The notes under the pieces: model-generated
What the model was told of the DNA's origin: nothing
What the model saw: the letters and a program-made list of their open reading frames with translations, nothing else
The model's database searches: none
Assembly (NCBI RefSeq): GCF_963677005.1
Contig: NZ_OY781616.1
Location: 2,489,001 to 2,553,000, forward strand
DNA: 64,000 bases
Direction: 5' to 3'
DNA from: Maridesulfovibrio sp.
Lineage (GTDB): Bacteria; Desulfobacterota; Desulfovibrionia; Desulfovibrionales; Desulfovibrionaceae
Program-made: the position numbers and the translations under genes
Part shown: piece by piece, positions 37,771 through 48,298 of the stretch
Layout: every line of letters begins with the position of its first letter
Position numbering within the stretch: position 1 is the first letter of the stretch

Positions 37771-38055
37771 TTTTATATACAAATTTTACTCAATAAATCT
37801 GCTCAAAGTGCTGAATATAAATTCATTAGCATTCAACAGTACACGAATATACGTTCTTATGCGGCAGGCGTAGTCCGCTATTTATGCTGCACTGGATTTG
37901 CCTTCCCGGAAATTATGAAGAAAACCAACTTGGGAGTTGCGCAGAACCGCCATAACCAATTATAGTTGATAAGAGACTCCGCAGTCCAGAAGATGTCCTG
38001 TCCGGGCAGCTATCACGGCAGGATCAACATTCATACAAGGAGCAATTTTATCCTT

Positions 38056-39861
38056 ATGACAGTTACTCCAGATATCGTGCTGGTCCTTTGCGTTCTACTT
38101 GTTGTTATCATCCTGTTCATTATTGATCGTGTCCGCGTTGATGTCGTGGGTATAATCGTCATGGTAGGCCTGCCGCTGCTTGGTCTTGTCACGCCGCAGC
38201 AGGCTGTGAGCGGACTGAGCAGTAACGCGGTTGTATCGATAATTGCCGTCATCATCATCGGTGCTGGGCTGGACAGAACAGGTGTTATGAACAGGCTGGC
38301 AAGACTGATTCTCCGCTTTGCCGGCAAAAGGGAAAGCAGAATCACCGCCATGGTATCGGGAACTGTAGCAGTCATTTCCGGATTCATGCAGAACATAGGT
38401 GCAGCGGCACTGTTTATGCCTGCAGCAAGACGTATAGCCTCGCAGACAGGAATACCGGTGGCCCATATCCTTCTGCCGATGGCTTATTGTGCCATTATCG
38501 GCGGGACCCTGACCCTTGTTGGCTCCAGCCCGCTGATACTGCTTAACGACCTGCTGGTTGTCCAAGGCAAATCATACGAACATTTCGGCATGTTCAGCAT
38601 GACCCCGATCGGAATCATGCTCATTATAGCCGCTCTTATCTATTTCTACCTGCTGGGCAAAAAAATTCTTCCCGGCTGCAAGCAGATTCGCGAACGCGGC
38701 CCTCTATCCCCTCTGCTGGATAAAACCTACCACGAAGTCGGTAAGATATACGAAATGGTCATTCCGGAAAACGGTTTCACCAAAAAGTCGCTGGGGCAAT
38801 TAAGGATTCGCGCCAATTATGCCTGCACAGTCCTTGCCGCATACAACCACGTTACCCACAAGCGTATTGTAGCCCCCCTTTCCGAAGACGAACTTTCACC
38901 GGGGGATTGTCTGGCAGTTGTCGGGCCGCCCATGTTCGTGGAAAAACTGGCCCGGGATTTCGGCTGGATCTACAAAGATGAGCTCAAGGTGTTTGCCGAT
39001 GATCTGGCCCCCGCCAATGCAGGGATCATGGAAGGGATAGTCACCCCGCGCTCAGCACTCATAGGCAAGAGGGTCGGCGACTTTCAATTCAGGCGGAAAT
39101 ACGGAGTTTCACCGCTCGCCATTTTCATGGGACATGAAATCACTGTAAGTGACCTGTCGGTCCAGACGGTAAGCGAAGGCAATGCCCTGCTGCTGCACGG
39201 AAAATGGAGTGCCTTTCACCGGCTGAAGGATCAGAACGACCTTGTCTTTACTGAACCGATAAGGGGAGAAGAGATAAGGGAGGATAAAGCTACCGCAGCA
39301 CTGACCTGTCTCGCCATATCACTGTTCATGATCCTTGTGCTGAACATACAGCTGTCCATAGCACTCTTCTTCGGCGCTCTGTGCATGGTCCTCAGCGGGG
39401 TCCTGTCCATTGATGAAGCATACCTTTCCGTGGACTGGATGACCGTATTCCTGCTGGCCGGACTGATCCCTCTGGGACTGGCCTTTGAGAACACCGGCGC
39501 GGCAAAACTCATTGCCGATTCACTCATGCACATGCTCGGGGTTCCTTCCCCCATAGTCCTGCTGGCCAGCATAGCCCTTCTGACTTCCTTCTTTACTCTG
39601 TTCACGTCCAATGTAGGGGCCACGGTTCTGCTTGTTCCTCTGTCCATGAACCTGGCTTTATCCTGCGGATGCGACCCCAGGGCGGCGGCCATGACTGTGG
39701 CGCTGGCAGCATCGAATACTTTCGTCCTTCCGACCCATCAGGTCAACGCGCTTATAATGCGGCCTGCAGGCCTGAGACCGATAGACTACCTGAAGGCAGG
39801 TGCGGGCATGACAATCATTTTCCTGATCGTGCTTGTGGCGGGGATGCGTATTTTCTTTTGA
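38056..39861 (+). CDS. SLC13-type permease with two TrkA-C domains
   Basis: 601 residues from ATG 38056; the frame opens at 37966, but the paralogue at 40351 begins at the equivalent residue (MTPEILL against MTVTPDIVLVL), and AAGGAG lies upstream. Membrane helices fill 1-200 and 400-601, with two soluble TrkA-C (RCK_C) domains between (~215-390). GFMQNIGAAALFMPAA and TSNVGATVLLVPLS are the paired hairpin signatures of the divalent anion:sodium symporter fold. May carry sulfate, dicarboxylates or similar anions with Na+; RCK_C domains often bind nucleotides. Confidence 0.85.
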   Translation: MTVTPDIVLVLCVLLVVIILFIIDRVRVDVVGIIVMVGLPLLGLVTPQQAVSGLSSNAVVSIIAVIIIGAGLDRTGVMNRLARLILRFAGKRESRITAMVSGTVAVISGFMQNIGAAALFMPAARRIASQTGIPVAHILLPMAYCAIIGGTLTLVGSSPLILLNDLLVVQGKSYEHFGMFSMTPIGIMLIIAALIYFYLLGKKILPGCKQIRERGPLSPLLDKTYHEVGKIYEMVIPENGFTKKSLGQLRIRANYACTVLAAYNHVTHKRIVAPLSEDELSPGDCLAVVGPPMFVEKLARDFGWIYKDELKVFADDLAPANAGIMEGIVTPRSALIGKRVGDFQFRRKYGVSPLAIFMGHEITVSDLSVQTVSEGNALLLHGKWSAFHRLKDQNDLVFTEPIRGEEIREDKATAALTCLAISLFMILVLNIQLSIALFFGALCMVLSGVLSIDEAYLSVDWMTVFLLAGLIPLGLAFENTGAAKLIADSLMHMLGVPSPIVLLASIALLTSFFTLFTSNVGATVLLVPLSMNLALSCGCDPRAAAMTVALAASNTFVLPTHQVNALIMRPAGLRPIDYLKAGAGMTIIFLIVLVAGMRIFF

Positions 39862-40350: not shown

Positions 40351-42150
40351 TTAATAAAGTGTCATCAGAGCGAAGATCATGACAACCATATACAATACGG
40401 TCATCCCTGCTCCGGCCCTGACGTAGTCGATAGTTTTGTATCCGCCCGGACGCATGATCAAGGCATTGACCTGATGGGTAGGCAGAACAAAGGTGTTGGA
40501 CGCTGCAACAGCAACGGTGAGAGCCGCAATGCGGGGATCAACACCGGCGTTAAGCGCCATGTTCATGGACAACGGAACCAGCAGAACCGTTGCGCCCACG
40601 TTCGATGCGACCAGAGTGAAGAACGAGGTCAGTGCACCGATTACAGTAAGCAGAACAAGAGCCGAAGGCTGTCCCAGCGCCGCCATGATGGTATCGGCTA
40701 TATATTTAGCCGCGCCCGTATTTTCAAAGGCCATTCCCAGGGGAATAAGTCCTCCGAGGAGAAATACGGTCATCCAGTCCACAGACTGGTAGGCTTCGTC
40801 AATGGACAGGACCTTGGTCAGGACCATACCCAGAGCACCTGTGAGAAGTGCTATGGAAAGCTGGATATGAAGTCCCAGAATCATGACCAGCGAAACGCCG
40901 AGCCACATGAGGGCCACCTTGGCCTTTTCAGTGCGCAGAATTTCGCCCTTTACATCTTCAGTGAAGACGAAGTCGGGTCTGTCCTTGAGCATGTGGAACA
41001 TTTCCCAGCGTCCGTGCAGGAGAAGCGCGTCACCGGATTCCAGCTTGATATCGGTAAGTCCGCTGATGAAAAGTTTCTCTCCCCTGAAAATCGCAAGAGG
41101 GGAAACCTGAAAGCGGTCCCTGATGCGCAATTGTCTGAGAGTCATGCCCACAAGCTCGGAACGGGGGGTAATGATACCCTCCATGATACCGGCATTGTTG
41201 GGTGAAAGTTCTTCAGCAAACGTGGCAAGTTCTTCTTTGAGTTCCCACCCTAAATCAGCGGCCATGTTGCGGACGAAATCAAGGGGACCGACGACAGCCA
41301 GATGGTCTCCGGGAAGTATCTTTTCCAGAGCCTCCGGGGCTATCTTGTGCGTTTTACCCTTATCACGCGCGATGGCTACGATTGTGGAGAAGTAGATGGG
41401 ACGGAGCTCAAGTCCTCTGAGGTCCCGGTCGGAACTCCATGTTTCGGGCACATGAAGCTCAAAAAGGGAACCGATGCCGCCGTAGGTGTCGGTCAGCAGT
41501 TCGGACATGGGCCCGGAAACCTCATCAACGCTCTTGCTCGGCAGAATGAATCTTCCGAAGAGGATGAAGTATACAATTGCGGCGGCTATCAGGATCAATC
41601 CTATGGGAGTAACCCCGAAAAGACCGAAAGGTTCATAATGCTTGCCGCCGACAATCATGAGATCGTTAAGGAGAATCAGAGGGCTGGAACCGACCAGAGT
41701 CAGACAGCCGCCGATAATGGCACAGAAGCCCATCGGCATCAGCAGTCTTCCGATAGGAACCCCGGTCTGGTTGCCGATTCGCTTGGCCGCAGGCAGAAAA
41801 AGAGCTGCGGCCCCGATATTCTGCATGAATCCTGAAATGATTGCTACGGTTCCGGCGATCAGGGACATGATCCTTGTCTCGCTTTTACCTGCAAACTTCA
41901 GGATGACTCTTGCCATTGAATTCATCACACCGGTCTTATCAAGCCCGGCGCCAATGATGATTACAGCTATGATCGAAACAACCGCATTGCTGCTTAAACC
42001 GCTGATCGCCTGCTTAGGAGTGACGAGCCCGAGCAGAGGGAGCAGTACCATCATGATGATGCCTACCACGTCCACTCTTACCCATTCGAATATGAAAAGC
42101 AGTACAGCAAAGGCCAGTACTGCCATTACTAGAAGAATCTCTGGAGTCAT
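40351..42150 (-). CDS. SLC13-type permease with two TrkA-C domains (paralogue)
   Basis: 599 residues, similar along its whole length to the convergent permease at 38056: same VRVDVVGI, GFMQNIGAAALFLPAA, two RCK_C domains (~215-390, VSPLAIFRGEKL) and ASNVGATVLLVPLS. Likely an old duplication with divided expression or substrate. Followed upstream by a stress-protein-like gene on the same strand, 46 bases away. Confidence 0.85.
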   Translation of the reverse strand: MTPEILLVMAVLAFAVLLFIFEWVRVDVVGIIMMVLLPLLGLVTPKQAISGLSSNAVVSIIAVIIIGAGLDKTGVMNSMARVILKFAGKSETRIMSLIAGTVAIISGFMQNIGAAALFLPAAKRIGNQTGVPIGRLLMPMGFCAIIGGCLTLVGSSPLILLNDLMIVGGKHYEPFGLFGVTPIGLILIAAAIVYFILFGRFILPSKSVDEVSGPMSELLTDTYGGIGSLFELHVPETWSSDRDLRGLELRPIYFSTIVAIARDKGKTHKIAPEALEKILPGDHLAVVGPLDFVRNMAADLGWELKEELATFAEELSPNNAGIMEGIITPRSELVGMTLRQLRIRDRFQVSPLAIFRGEKLFISGLTDIKLESGDALLLHGRWEMFHMLKDRPDFVFTEDVKGEILRTEKAKVALMWLGVSLVMILGLHIQLSIALLTGALGMVLTKVLSIDEAYQSVDWMTVFLLGGLIPLGMAFENTGAAKYIADTIMAALGQPSALVLLTVIGALTSFFTLVASNVGATVLLVPLSMNMALNAGVDPRIAALTVAVAASNTFVLPTHQVNALIMRPGGYKTIDYVRAGAGMTVLYMVVMIFALMTLY

Positions 42151-42196: not shown

Positions 42197-42808
42197 CTAT
42201 TTTACCCGGAGCATCGCTCGTGTGTACACGGGGATGGCCCTGCCGGCCGACTTGCTGGTAGCAACATCTTCCATAACGAAACGAAGGTTGCCGTCCTGCT
42301 CGTGAAGATCAGCAACGACCGAGTCTTCCTTTCCATGCTTCACTACGTGAGCAAAGAGAAGTCCGGCTTCCTTGGCCTTTGACGAAAAATCGGAGATATT
42401 CTCCTCGGACTGGGAACAGAAGTTACCGAAATCCGAACCCTGTTCGTCAAGGTTCAAAGCCACAAGGCTGCTTTTTGTTCTGGCGGCCATTTCTACAGCA
42501 TAGCTGACGACCTTGCCGGAAAATGCAGCGCCCTTGCTCACGACCAGGATCTTTCCGCCAACCGAGGTTGTTTCGGAAAGATTGTCTACCAGTTTATCGT
42601 TTTCTACTTGAGGTACGGCAGTCTTTCCGCTGTTGACTCGAAAACGGTTAAGTAATGACTTCAAGAAAACCCCCCTTTCTTTTGGGTCAGTTAATGACTG
42701 GTCCCGATTAATGGCCCATTTGCCCACGTTACAGGTGTTGGAATGATTCTCCGCCTTTGTTGCGTAAAACCGTTCTAAGAGACCGATAAAATTCTGTACG
42801 GTAGCCAT
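42197..42808 (-). CDS. Protein with C-terminal universal-stress-like domain
   Basis: 203 residues. The second half opens GKILVVSKGAAFSGKVVSYAVEMA and has KSSLVALNLDE, the usual first strand-helix-strand of a UspA fold, but without the Gly-rich ATP loop at the end. The first 75 residues match nothing. It precedes the permease gene on the same strand and could modulate it, as USP domains do for several transporters. Inference only. Confidence 0.55.
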   Translation of the reverse strand: MATVQNFIGLLERFYATKAENHSNTCNVGKWAINRDQSLTDPKERGVFLKSLLNRFRVNSGKTAVPQVENDKLVDNLSETTSVGGKILVVSKGAAFSGKVVSYAVEMAARTKSSLVALNLDEQGSDFGNFCSQSEENISDFSSKAKEAGLLFAHVVKHGKEDSVVADLHEQDGNLRFVMEDVATSKSAGRAIPVYTRAMLRVK

Positions 42809-43297
42809 GGTGCCTCCTGGTTAAATTTCCTTTCTGCCCCTCTTTTCATCAATAAGCGTGCCAAGAAGAGTAACAGCGATAACATTCGTAAATTCAGAAT
42901 GTTACAGAAAATAATCTTTTTTTCGCCAAATTTAACCGTTACTATACGCAACGATTGTGAAAGGCTTAACAATCACAAAAGCCAAATTTCCCGATTACAA
43001 AAGGTTTTGAAGGCGTTGCTATTTGCAACAAGGACTGTTTTTAGACCGGCTTTAATCCGGCAGCCAGAGCTGTTCGCAAATGTAAACGCACACTCATTAA
43101 GAAAAAAATATAATAAAATCAGTATAATTTGCTCTGAACACTTTTTTTGAGCGGACCAGAAAAACTCATTGGAAGGTATGTTTCAAAGTGCAACATTAAC
43201 AGCCGACTTTATAAGTGATATGTTGCCACGATCAGTAAGTGAGGCCCGCACGGGTTCACTTTAACCGACATATGAGAGCAGCCTGGAGGGATGGCGG
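42809..43297. other. Divergent intergenic region with leader hairpin
   Basis: About 490 A+T-rich bases serving both the leftward stress/permease pair and the rightward Lon fusion. A near-perfect hairpin AAGTGAGGCCCG / CGGGTTCACTT lies at 43237-43261, 37 bases before the Lon ATG. No sigma54 element seen. Confidence 0.45.
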
Positions 43298-45346
43298 ATG
43301 AAGTGGTTCAACAGGAAGAATTCAGAGAGTCAAAAGCCGGTGGAAAAAGAGGTCCAGGAGCCGGAGGAAATAAACCTCAAACCGGAGAGTGCTGCGGAAG
43401 AACTGCTCAAAAGAGTCGAGGAATCGGACCTGCCTGAGCAGATACTTGCAACTGCCCGCGAAGAATGTGAACGTCTTCTCAAGATAGACAGTTCCGCACC
43501 TGAATTCGCCCTTGCATATAATTATGTGGACTTCATCCTTTCTCTTCCGTGGAACAATACAACAAAAGATGACCTGGACCTTGAAAGAGCCAAGGATATC
43601 CTTGATGTCCGCCACTACGGACTGGACAACGTCAAGGAAAGGATTCTTGAATTTCTTGCGGTCAAGAACCTGCACAGCCGCATCAATCCGAATCTCATTA
43701 TAGCGGATGACGAAATCATCGCGCGGGAGAACCTTTCCATAATTTTCGAGCATGAAGGCTTTACGGTCCGTACTGTCGGAAACGGGCTGGAAGCCGTTGC
43801 CGCCATGGAAGAAGAGCAGGCGGATATAGTCATAACCGATCTTAAAATGGACGGAATGGACGGCCTTGAACTGCTTCAGGTGCTGCGCAGCCGCTGGCCG
43901 GATACGGGCGTCATAATGCTTACCGGCTATGCCACGGTAAAAACCGCAGTTACCGCCATGAAACGGGGAGCCGACCAATACCTTGGAAAGCCGGTAAACC
44001 TGACCAGACTCAGGGACTATGTTTACGAACTGCTGGGCAAGAACCAGCGCATACAGGGCCTCCGGGGTCCGGTACTGTGCTTCAGCGGCCCTCCGGGAAC
44101 CGGCAAGACTTCCATAGGCAAGGCCATTGCCGAGGCTATGGGCAGAAAATTTATCTGCCTGTCTCTGGCCGGACTGCGGGATGAATCGGAACTGCGCGGA
44201 CACCGCAGGACCTATGTGGGCTCCATGTCTGGCAGACTCCTGCAAAGTATACGCAAATGCGGAGTACGCAACCCGGTTATCATGCTTGATGAGCTGGACA
44301 AGATAATCCAGAGCTTTCAGGGGGACGCAACCTCCGTACTTCTGGAAATTCTCGATCCGCAGCAGAACTCGGCATTCGTTGACCACTATCTGGGGCTGCC
44401 CTTCGACCTGTCCGGGGTCCTGTTCATTGCCACGGCCAACATCATTGAGCGCATCCCCGGACCGCTGCTTGATAGATTGGAAATGATAGAATTTTCAAGC
44501 TACACCCTTCGTGAAAAACAGAAAATCGCAAGCGAATTTCTGCTCCCGTCCCAGTTGCGGCAGCACGGGCTGGTTGTCTCCGAAGTGGAGGTAAGCAACG
44601 AAGCGATAAAAACGCTGATAAGCGATTATACAAGAGAGCCCGGCCTGAGGAGTCTTGATAAGCAGATCGCCGCGCTTTGCAGAAAGCTGGCCCGCAGAAA
44701 GCTGGCCGATGAAAACGGTTCCGGCCCCCTTGAAGTCGATACCGGAAGCCTCGCGGCCCTGCTCGGCCCTCCGCCGCATTTCAGCGCCTCGGTAGGGAGT
44801 GCCCCGAAAGTTGGTGTGGCTACGGGACTGGTCTGGTCGGAAAACGGCGGAGAGATCATTTTTGTTGAAGCGGCCAAGATGTTCGGCAACAAAAAACTCA
44901 TTCTCACCGGATCACTGGGGGAAGTCCTGCAGGAGTCGGCGCAGACTGCTCTGAGCTACCTGCGTGCCAACGCCGGAAAATTTGACCTTGCTCAGGACTT
45001 TTTCGAGTCTTCGGACATCCATGTCCACATCCCCGCAGGAGCGGTAACCAAGGAAGGTCCGTCGGCCGGGGTAACCATTGCGGTAGCCATTCTTTCGCAG
45101 CTTACGGAAAGACCTGTTCCGGAAGACATGGCCTTCAGCGGGGAGATTTCACTGCACGGGGACGTACTGCCGGTAGGCGGAGTGCGCGAAAAGGTCATGG
45201 CCGCATCACGAGCCGGCATCCGCACAATAGTACTTCCGGACAAATGTGCGAACGCGGTCGAGAGTATCGAAGAGGAAGTTCTCGAAGGCATGGAGATACG
45301 TCTGGTAAGCAGGCTTGACGAAGCCCTGAAACTGGCAATGAGTTGA
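43298..45346 (+). CDS. Lon-type protease with inserted receiver domain
   Basis: 682 residues. Residues ~30-125 are the C-terminal helical part of the Lon N-region (SLPWNN...LDVRHYGLDNVKERILEFLAV). A complete response-regulator receiver occupies ~130-250 (IIADDE, phospho-Asp in VITDLKMDGMDG near 182, Thr in MLTGYA, Lys in GKPVN). Then the Lon sequence resumes at once: Walker A GPPGTGKTS near 265, Walker B IMLDELDK, a sensor/helical region, and the protease domain with catalytic Ser in GPSAGVT near 589 and Lys in REKVMAA near 630. The PUA-like substrate domain of ordinary Lon is missing. All catalytic and phosphorylation residues are intact. Start ATG 43298 follows GGAGGG. Proteolysis may be switched by phosphorylation. 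Confidence 0.9.
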   Translation: MKWFNRKNSESQKPVEKEVQEPEEINLKPESAAEELLKRVEESDLPEQILATAREECERLLKIDSSAPEFALAYNYVDFILSLPWNNTTKDDLDLERAKDILDVRHYGLDNVKERILEFLAVKNLHSRINPNLIIADDEIIARENLSIIFEHEGFTVRTVGNGLEAVAAMEEEQADIVITDLKMDGMDGLELLQVLRSRWPDTGVIMLTGYATVKTAVTAMKRGADQYLGKPVNLTRLRDYVYELLGKNQRIQGLRGPVLCFSGPPGTGKTSIGKAIAEAMGRKFICLSLAGLRDESELRGHRRTYVGSMSGRLLQSIRKCGVRNPVIMLDELDKIIQSFQGDATSVLLEILDPQQNSAFVDHYLGLPFDLSGVLFIATANIIERIPGPLLDRLEMIEFSSYTLREKQKIASEFLLPSQLRQHGLVVSEVEVSNEAIKTLISDYTREPGLRSLDKQIAALCRKLARRKLADENGSGPLEVDTGSLAALLGPPPHFSASVGSAPKVGVATGLVWSENGGEIIFVEAAKMFGNKKLILTGSLGEVLQESAQTALSYLRANAGKFDLAQDFFESSDIHVHIPAGAVTKEGPSAGVTIAVAILSQLTERPVPEDMAFSGEISLHGDVLPVGGVREKVMAASRAGIRTIVLPDKCANAVESIEEEVLEGMEIRLVSRLDEALKLAMS

Positions 45347-45350
45347 GTTT

Positions 45351-46693
<1,343 letters not shown>

Positions 46694-46697
<4 letters not shown>

Positions 46698-48109
46698 GCA
46701 TTATGCTCCGTATCCAGGGGGATTGTAATGACGAAGGTGGTACCCTCACCGGGACGGCTTTCCGCGCGTATTTTTCCCTGATGCTTTTCAATGATTCCGT
46801 ACACTATGTACAATCCAAGTCCGGTTCCCTGCCCGACTTCCTTGGTGGAAAAAAACGGATCGAAAATCCTTTCCAGTATGTCCGGAGACATCCCCTGTCC
46901 GGTATCGCTTACGGTAACAACGATATTTCCCTTATCCACGGAAGCGCTGACACGAATCTCCCCGGACTTCTCTCCGATGGCCTGAATGGCGTTTATGAGC
47001 AGGTTGATGAAGGCTTCCTGCATTTTCCTGCGGTCCACATGCACGGCGATGTGATCAGGTATATTCGTGGAAAGGGATATGTTGGACGGCACCTGACTGG
47101 AAACCAGACTGACGGCCGACTGGACTATCTTGTCGATTTCTATCGGTCCGGGAGAATATTCGCGCTCTCTGGAAAATTCCAGCAGTCCCTTAACGATATC
47201 ACGGGAACGCAGCGTCTCCTGCATGATGTTGTCCATCATTTTATCAGCAAGTGCGTCCTCCCCCTTTTTACCTTCCATCAATATCTGGCAGGAAGTGGAA
47301 ATATTGTTCAGGGGGTTGTTCAACTGGTGGGCAATGCCGGAAGCAAGGGTCCCTATGGAGGAAAGCTTCTGGGCCTGCACCAGTTGTTTGCGCCTTTTCA
47401 GAAGCTGCTCAACCATTGAATTGAGCGCGGCAAAAACCTGCTGAATCTCATCATGAGAGTTCTTGATCGGCAAAGCCTTGAAAGTGCCCTGTGATATTTT
47501 CCTTGTCGCTTCCTGCACCTGAGTAAGCGGCTTCAGTATATTTGATGACACAAATCCGACCAGAGCCAGAACAACCGCAGCGATGCCGACCATGGAAAGC
47601 GTCAGGTTTGAGCGCAGTTCCTGATTTATGCTGAGGATATTCGCGCGCTCGAACCTGGAAATGGATTTTGAATACTCCACAAGGGCCTGCCCGACCTCCC
47701 TCAGTTTGCTGCTCCGGTCCGGCCCGGTTCTGACCTTGTTATCGGCAGCAGGCGCCAACTGCTGCAGCAGATCCCTGTAGCGCGACATATCGGTCTTTAG
47801 ACCCTGTCCGCTTTTCTTCACCTCCGAATTGCCGAATTCCCCCATCAGTACGTTCAGGAGCTTCTCGGCCCGGTCCAGATAACTGAACCCCTGCGAAAAC
47901 AGGCTGGGGTCCCGGTACAGGAAGTAGTTCTTCTCAATGCGCCGGACCTCCAGAATAAGGTTACTCAGGTCGTCCACCCGTTCTATGATCAGAACTTCCC
48001 GCTCCAACTGCAGTGTGTTCATATAAGAAATCATTCCTATGCAGCCGAAGCAGATGGAAAAAATGACTATACCTAATATGATTTTCTGACGGATATTTAA
48101 TTTCAGCAT
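46694..48109 (-). CDS. Membrane sensor histidine kinase
   Basis: 471 residues from ATG 48109 (MLKLNIRQKII); the longer frame to 48250 lacks membrane character. Two helices (IILGIVIFSICFGCIGMISY and LSMVGIAAVVLALVGFVSSN, ~185-205) bracket a helical periplasmic sensor, then HAMP, a DHp with GTLASGIAHQLNNPLNN and an HATPase with VSDTGQGMS and GTGLGLYIV. Forms a pair with the overlapping NtrC regulator, and may also phosphorylate the receiver of the Lon fusion (inference from receiver similarity). Confidence 0.88.
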
Positions 48110-48298
48110 AACACCATGTCCGGGGAAGAGTTGGAAATCCCAAAAAATATTTACTGTTACGGAGTTACCCAGCCTACGATGAGTACAGGCAAAAGGCAAT
48201 CCGCCGGGACAGTCGAAGGCATCCGGGTTTGATGCACGCAGCACCTGCAATTATCAACACAGGTTATCTCATTCATTCTCACGGCAGTGGAAATGGTC

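Follow-up and report, generated by a model that had tools for sequence, protein, structure and literature searches.

What a response-regulator receiver does within the motor of an ATP-dependent protease, and with which partners it does so, is the question raised by a gene at positions 43298..45346 (+) of the window, i.e. the complete stretch of 64,000 nucleotides from Maridesulfovibrio sp. that was analysed. The gene is an open reading frame for a protein of 682 aa, referred to below as REC-Lon, in which Pfam recognizes the domains REC, AAA, Lon_lid and Lon_C. The claim that such an architecture had gone unreported was dropped, as DVU3303 of D. vulgaris has been in print since 2011 as the Lon-containing response regulator of a three-component system (Rajeev et al. 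2011, PMC3333781). Rajeev et al. also suggested that DVU3303 may require phosphorylation for protease activity (PMC3333781), and both the fusion and the core phosphorylation idea are thus already published; the preliminary description of the locus, in which Lon was taken to be controlled by substrates and polyphosphate and not by phosphotransfer, had overlooked that work (PMC3333781). What is new, in that the portions of the literature that were examined hold no statement on it, is a single tree group of such proteins, the sister relationship of two receivers and a module with an exchangeable transporter. The best explanation of the locus, to which we assign a probability of roughly 0.6, is that REC-Lon serves as the post-translational arm in a dedicated two-component module with two outputs, where one kinase drives two sister receivers.

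The protein is composed of a short N-terminal tail, the Lon helical region, the receiver, an AAA+ ATPase with its lid and the Lon proteolytic domain, in that order. Pfam places Response_reg at residues 134-242 (101.4 bits), AAA at 260-399, Lon_lid at 422-472 and Lon_C at 480-681, and NCBIfam assigns the protein to endopeptidase La (TIGR00763, 670.1 bits against a cut-off of 608.05). In terms of the DNA, the helical region (residues 29-128, kept according to the alignment with LonA and helical in the model) is encoded at 43382..43681 (+), the receiver (residues ~131-248 by Pfam and model, bounded by LEFLAVKNLHSRI and NQRIQGLRGPVLCFSGPPGTGKTS) at 43688..44041 (+), the ATPase (Pfam, residues 260-399, with Walker A GPPGTGKTS and Walker B LDELDK) at 44075..44494 (+) and the proteolytic domain (Pfam, residues 480-681, with the Ser589/Lys632 dyad) at 44735..45340 (+). 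Reading frame, Pfam order and alignment with LonA therefore bear out the initial placement of the receiver between the Lon helical region and the P-loop. A LON substrate-binding domain gave no Pfam match in REC-Lon at E 0.001 and appears as a gap when the protein is aligned to LonA, so that its reported absence holds; the earlier reading had passed over the ~100 residues of helical N-terminal region (29-128) that remain. Judged by its sequence, REC-Lon is a Lon relative without the standard LonA N-terminal domain. Its N-terminus carries an aromatic-basic motif, MKWFNRK (43298..43318, +), in a low-confidence region of the model, and possibly makes a membrane or partner contact there; starts of the form M-x-FF/WF-R/K-K are found in most REC-Lons (a loose version of the pattern fits 67/69, a few of these being misplaced).

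The junction was studied in an alignment of 29 sequences, namely the window protein, 12 other REC-Lons and 16 LonAs. Where the receiver sits, just ahead of the Walker A strand, the 16 LonAs hold either nothing or a short insertion. Extra residues were seen where REC sits in REC-Lon in cyanobacterial LonAs (L035, L038, L044, L085 and others, and L042 by alignment), and on account of these sequences the Lon loop before the P-loop seems to tolerate insertion. In the AlphaFold2 model of the monomer (mean pLDDT 86.4, pTM 0.77) helix 110-128 runs into beta1 of the receiver, and alpha5 of the receiver is a single helix (235-254) that is followed by the Walker A strand (259-263). The fold that surrounds the receiver insert is that of LonA according to Foldseek, with a top target-normalised TM-score of 0.91 among the 50 matches listed (e.g. 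4ypl_F).

Residues needed for phosphorylation and for catalysis are conserved throughout. Identical in all 69 aligned REC-Lons are Asp137, Asp138, Asp181, Thr209 and Lys231 of the receiver as well as Lys270, Asp331, Ser589 and Lys632 of the ATPase and protease, and Glu332 of Walker B is kept in 68/69. The receiver's Asp, Thr and Lys positions are filled and the protease Ser and Lys are intact, both as previously noted; the phospho-acceptor had been numbered Asp182 and is in fact Asp181 (codon 43838..43840, +). This conservation bears on the possibility that the receiver is merely a structural stand-in for the lost N-terminal domain and that its phosphorylation is irrelevant. The N-terminal substrate domain is indeed absent from the window protein and from the 12 other aligned REC-Lons, but a mere scaffold should have little need for five invariant phosphorylation residues and the receiver is not located N-terminally, which makes this a very improbable explanation.

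To place REC-Lon in an evolutionary setting, 80 loci from its own phylum and from Nitrospirota were collected (the window plus sets of 12, 27 and 40), 69 of which were aligned. All genome counts are lower bounds, as 65, 9 and 19 candidates per genome were scored in the sets of 58, 395 and 198 genomes, respectively. Among the 58 related genomes 28, the window's own included, contain the gene, and all 27 others that were fetched are fusions, in line with the expectation that relatives would show the same order. Within the genus REC-Lon was found in 13 of the 16 other genomes and was not seen in the remaining 3 (in the search with 65 candidates scored in each), which counts against the explanation given above. 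In the own phylum at least 48 of the 395 sampled genomes (own included) have a match that includes the P-loop and lies in a frame at least 640 aa long, and all 42 of these 48 loci that were inspected are fusions; in the phylum of a Nitrospirota locus at least 25 of the 198 sampled genomes have such a match by bulk count, and in one further genome a stop breaks the match. A scan of genome contigs, in which 80 of 119 loci were kept, yielded 12 fusions (ten from Nitrospirota, two from Desulfobacteraceae/Desulfobacterales). None of 398 Pseudomonadota genomes gave a REC-Lon at the threshold, a weak negative at 9 candidates scored per genome that is tempered further by the mention of Thioalkalivibrio and Dechloromonas in Rajeev et al. 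(PMC3333781). A chance or assembly fusion was ruled out by the recurrence in related genomes and by the residue conservation in 69/69; an artefact of assembly or annotation has a negligible probability, given that REC-Lon is present in 80 loci of different genomes and was also described in D. vulgaris (PMC3333781).

In the unrooted tree all 69 REC-Lons are separated from 66 LonAs by one branch (SH-aLRT 99), and because they lie together on one side of it the simplest reading of the sequences is that REC-Lon arose once. Besides REC-Lon, the window's genome has two proteases of the LonA type and another two frames that resemble Lon more distantly.

The genes that surround REC-Lon provide the clues to its partners. 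Convergent with it lies a gene for an NtrC-type response regulator (45351..46697, -; REC, sigma-54 AAA+ and Fis HTH by Pfam), next to one for a sensor histidine kinase (46694..48109, -; HAMP, HisKA and HATPase by ORF and Pfam, with a sub-threshold match to a helical sensor). The kinase start was set at the ATG at 48109, the frame being open to a TTG at 48250, and the stretch scanned was 46697-48130. Divergent from REC-Lon is a gene for a Usp-like protein (42197..42808, -), followed by one for a CitMHS-type anion transporter with TrkA_C domains (40351..42150, -; Pfam, with an NCBIfam DASS match below cut-off). The Usp-like protein matches Pfam Usp at E 0.074, below the cut-off, as do several other members of its family, and its cluster mate L210:7303-7857 exceeds that cut-off; a structural model made from its one sequence was unusable (pLDDT 36.4). 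A second CitMHS-type transporter (37966-39861, +), 61% identical to the first, is encoded beyond it in the other direction. The convergence of REC-Lon with the regulator-kinase pair is the layout throughout the loci examined in the window's genus, and from this layout it follows that in the genus the REC-Lon gene is separate from the regulator and kinase genes.

Within 6 kb of the 80 REC-Lons a kinase was found 71 times, an NtrC-type regulator 63 times and both 62 times, as compared to 1, 0 and 0 times at 68 LonA control loci. A Usp-like domain is present at 76/80 REC-Lon loci versus 3/68 controls, and a CitMHS or TauE transporter at 71/80 (33 and 38, never both) versus 0/68. The neighbour families were defined from these same loci and the controls come from other taxa, with flanks of up to 6 kb, so that the contrast is large rather than unbiased. 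SulP occurs near 3 REC-Lons and 1 LonA control. Of the 76 Usp-like cases 65 were assigned by best hit; in the other 11 the frame gives a match to a small-membrane-protein model as well. The four loci without it are L008, L013, L016 and L135, three of which are cut by a contig end. At 18/80 loci the 6-kb neighbourhood did not show the kinase, the regulator or both, and contig ends truncate some of these loci; the shortfall counts against the dual-output reading. Pfam searches with representatives back the family names: HisKA and HATPase were recovered in all 11 kinases analysed (the window's and ten others), HAMP fell below cut-off in one, and a helical sensor domain (HBM or 4HB) gave weak matches below cut-off in 4/11. 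The window's regulator has EAFTGA and not an intact GAFTGA in the sigma-54 contact loop, the sigma-54 domain itself being present; among 66 neighbour regulators 30 have EAFTGA, 20 GAFTGA and 14 another sequence, and in 2 the loop was not found. DVU3305 is listed with GAFSGA (PMC4641369).

Two side observations concern the same neighbourhoods. At 17 loci a single frame matches both the Usp-like model and that of the small membrane protein which accompanies TauE, and these frames look fused (L134, L173, L174, L176-L179, L181-L188, L198 and L204). A cytidylate-kinase-like protein is encoded at 7/80 loci (L007, with PF13189, and L014, L141, L184, L185, L204 and L210).

In terms of gene content, then, the module is made up of five parts: kinase, regulator, REC-Lon, Usp-like protein and a transporter of the CitMHS or TauE type. 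The Usp-like protein and the anion transporter had escaped attention when the locus was first described. At the level of their families the transporters may be tied to sulfate or other oxyanions; the TSUP family, in which TauE is included in that discussion, is described as abundant in sulfate reducers and as not allowing function to be predicted (PMC5840216).

The receivers of REC-Lon and of the neighbouring regulator proved to be closely related. In 26 of 28 genomes the best non-Lon receiver match lies within 8 kb of REC-Lon (about half of the candidates being scored), and in the two exceptions (G028 and G021) REC-Lon is near a contig end. A tree was made of 133 receivers: a hand-picked set of 33 from the 80 REC-Lons, 32 from the regulators of the same loci and 68 background receivers from three genomes. 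Lon and regulator receivers cluster together with 4 of the background rows (SH-aLRT 91, or 85 for the grouping with 3), the other 64 falling outside, and are split from each other by one branch with a support of 76 in an alignment of few columns that leaves many forks open. Asn145 is found in 32/33 Lon receivers and 32/32 regulator receivers. In known two-component systems the alpha1 helix carries much of the kinase specificity. Both groups mostly have I-A-R-x-N-L in that helix, unlike 22 background enhancer-binding proteins (EBPs), and the mean alpha1 identity of a Lon receiver is 0.55 to its own regulator (n=32), 0.53 to the regulators of other loci and 0.24 to these 22 EBPs. As the first two values are nearly equal, the motif reflects conservation across the module family and not a locus-by-locus co-variation, and at the level of sequence it may be due to ancestry alone.

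The common motif would also suit a role of REC-Lon as a phosphate sink, i.e. a competitor for the kinase that tunes the regulator while its proteolysis is ungated. For a sink, an intact ATPase and protease would be superfluous, yet Lys270, Ser589 and Lys632 are invariant in 69/69. Furthermore, a sink is expected to have a fitness effect opposite to that of kinase and regulator, yet in D. vulgaris the kinase DVU3304, DVU3303 and DVU3305 were found in 2023 to have pairwise cofitness values >0.9 (PMC10102598), which could partly be transposon polarity if DVU3303-3305 form one operon. We consider this role quite improbable. The same cofitness, with the same caveat on polarity, weighs on the view that the receiver serves for docking or delivery, pairing with the regulator's receiver or the kinase and carrying that protein to the Lon ring, with phosphorylation-dependent feedback degradation of the regulator as the outcome: such a protease should oppose the fitness of kinase and regulator (PMC10102598). 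The close relationship of the receivers makes a cross-pairing via the alpha4-beta5-alpha5 faces plausible, and receivers elsewhere serve AAA+ proteases as adaptors, as RssB does for ClpXP (PMC7226468), but the receiver of REC-Lon resides within the motor and not at the N-terminus, where LonA has its substrate domain. On balance docking appears rather unlikely, and the cofitness, if not a matter of polarity, speaks for a protease that works alongside kinase and regulator rather than in opposition to them. The sign of regulation is ambiguous, as under chlorate the three genes are detrimental, yet the target DVU3299 is important for growth (PMC10102598).

The transcriptional arm of the module left its traces in the DNA upstream of REC-Lon. 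Between the genes for the Usp-like protein and REC-Lon a motif search found two palindromic, operator-like sites (no strand assigned), CGTTGCTATTTGCAACA at 43014..43030 and TGTTTCAAAGTGCAACA at 43179..43195, the latter beginning 119 bp ahead of the REC-Lon ATG and aligned in 8 rows of the genus, the window included; one further palindrome lies within the transporter gene. With one mismatch allowed, a related pattern picks up these three sites as 6 strand matches in the window where 0.19 are expected. The strict palindrome occurs six times in the 4.26-Mb genome: two times here, three times within open frames and once outside frames of at least 120 aa. In the upstream regions (420 bp) of 65 REC-Lons there are 139 TGTTGCAnnnTGCAACA-like sites (at least 10/14), versus a mean of 9.7 and a maximum of 17 in 50 mononucleotide shuffles, a control that keeps base composition only. 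These 65 of the 69 regions rest on REC-Lon starts that were picked by pattern and are too far downstream in at least 8 rows; L016, L135, L157 and L169 were dropped, their frames lacking a chosen start. Ten of the 65 regions have no such palindrome at the threshold, a point against the dual-output reading. In many upstream rows the palindromes are seen by eye to be paired at a distance of ~76-89 bp, pointing to two phased sites for the regulator. Rajeev et al. report a conserved binding site of DVU3305 (PMC3333781), and the recurrent palindrome is, as judged from that report of conservation, a likely candidate for this motif. A sigma-54 promoter ahead of REC-Lon was looked for in close genus members and not found, and in the intergenic region sigma-70-like pairs are about as frequent as chance predicts (2 versus 1.1 expected). 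Ahead of usp a sigma-54-like element with a conserved TGCCAA was noted by eye, read on the other strand.

Taken as a dual-output module, the system would operate as follows. The kinase (46694-48109) would sense a cue and subsequently phosphorylate both sister receivers. The NtrC-type regulator, once phosphorylated, would act on the palindromes in the gap that separates the usp-transporter genes from REC-Lon, and phosphorylation of REC-Lon at Asp181 would shift its alpha4-beta5-alpha5 face. Since alpha5 extends unbroken to the Walker A strand in the model, this change may reach the AAA+ ring and alter its assembly or the cycling of the ATPase, by which the degradation of a small set of targets would be switched in one direction or the other. 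Most plausibly, the targets would belong to the same module, being the Usp-like protein, the transporter or an antagonist. We favour such gating of ATPase and protease over mere docking on account of the position of the receiver inside the motor and the continuous alpha5 of the model, and by analogy with the rings of NtrC-type proteins and with RssB. The two-component pathway with a proteolytic output that had been proposed for the locus fits the invariant phosphorylation site, the nearby kinase and regulator and the common alpha1 motif; its output is probably dual, i.e. transcription and proteolysis.

A more far-reaching version, which we put forward tentatively and as somewhat less probable than not, holds that a receiver shared with a sigma-54-type activator entered the Lon motor once, such that one kinase would control two AAA+ rings and the level of the Usp-like protein or transporter would be set by proteolysis. 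One ring would then remodel RNA polymerase and the other unfold and degrade proteins, and the CitMHS/TauE transporter would have been swapped between loci while the control module stayed unchanged.

Should phosphorylation gate the ring, then a sensor kinase would be wired directly to an AAA+ protease that works processively. In cases like RssB-ClpXP the same link needs a separate adaptor, and REC-Lon would be switched by a kinase without one, illustrating how regulatory domains can pass from one AAA+ machine to another. The suggestion made in 2011 on the phosphorylation of DVU3303 becomes directly testable in a sulfate reducer amenable to laboratory work, and the link with anion transport could, judging from the transporter families, bear on the control of sulfate reduction. 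In a literature search that covered few subscription papers, no biochemical work came up in which phosphate is passed to REC-Lon or its ATPase or protease activity is altered.

The closest known system is that of DVU3303, a likeness that is drawn from the published descriptions. There, too, a Lon response regulator is accompanied by the kinase DVU3304 and the sigma-54-type regulator DVU3305, and the target genes code for proteins with UspA-type domains and for DVU3299, a putative transporter of anions; the window correspondingly has a REC-Lon with a nearby kinase and NtrC-type regulator and with Usp-like and transporter neighbours. That DVU3305 controls two operons, its own and DVU3302-3298, has been established in D. 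vulgaris by others, as has the cofitness (PMC10102598), and D. baculatum is among the species with DVU3305 orthologues (PMC3333781). DVU3303-3305 are listed as one target unit (PMC4641369), whereas in the window REC-Lon converges with a separate regulator-kinase pair. With LonA (PDB 6u5z, 3m6a, 4ypl) REC-Lon shares the AAA+ module, the Ser-Lys protease, the helical region and the fold; it differs in the receiver before the P-loop, in the absence of the N-terminal substrate domain and in Walker A, where Thr268 is found in 65/69 REC-Lons (GPPGTGKTS) and Val in 63/66 LonAs. In regulators of the NtrC1/DctD type the receiver connects via its alpha5 helix to the AAA+ ring. These regulators (PDB 1ny5, 1l5y) have a receiver of the same sequence family as REC-Lon, and their output is sigma-54 remodelling and DNA binding, whereas the predicted output of REC-Lon is proteolysis. 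RssB, finally, likewise couples a receiver to an AAA+ protease, ClpXP, and the authors of that study speculate that an extended alpha5 helix transmits the signal (PMC7226468). As an adaptor, RssB is a protein apart, whereas the receiver of REC-Lon is built into the protease itself.
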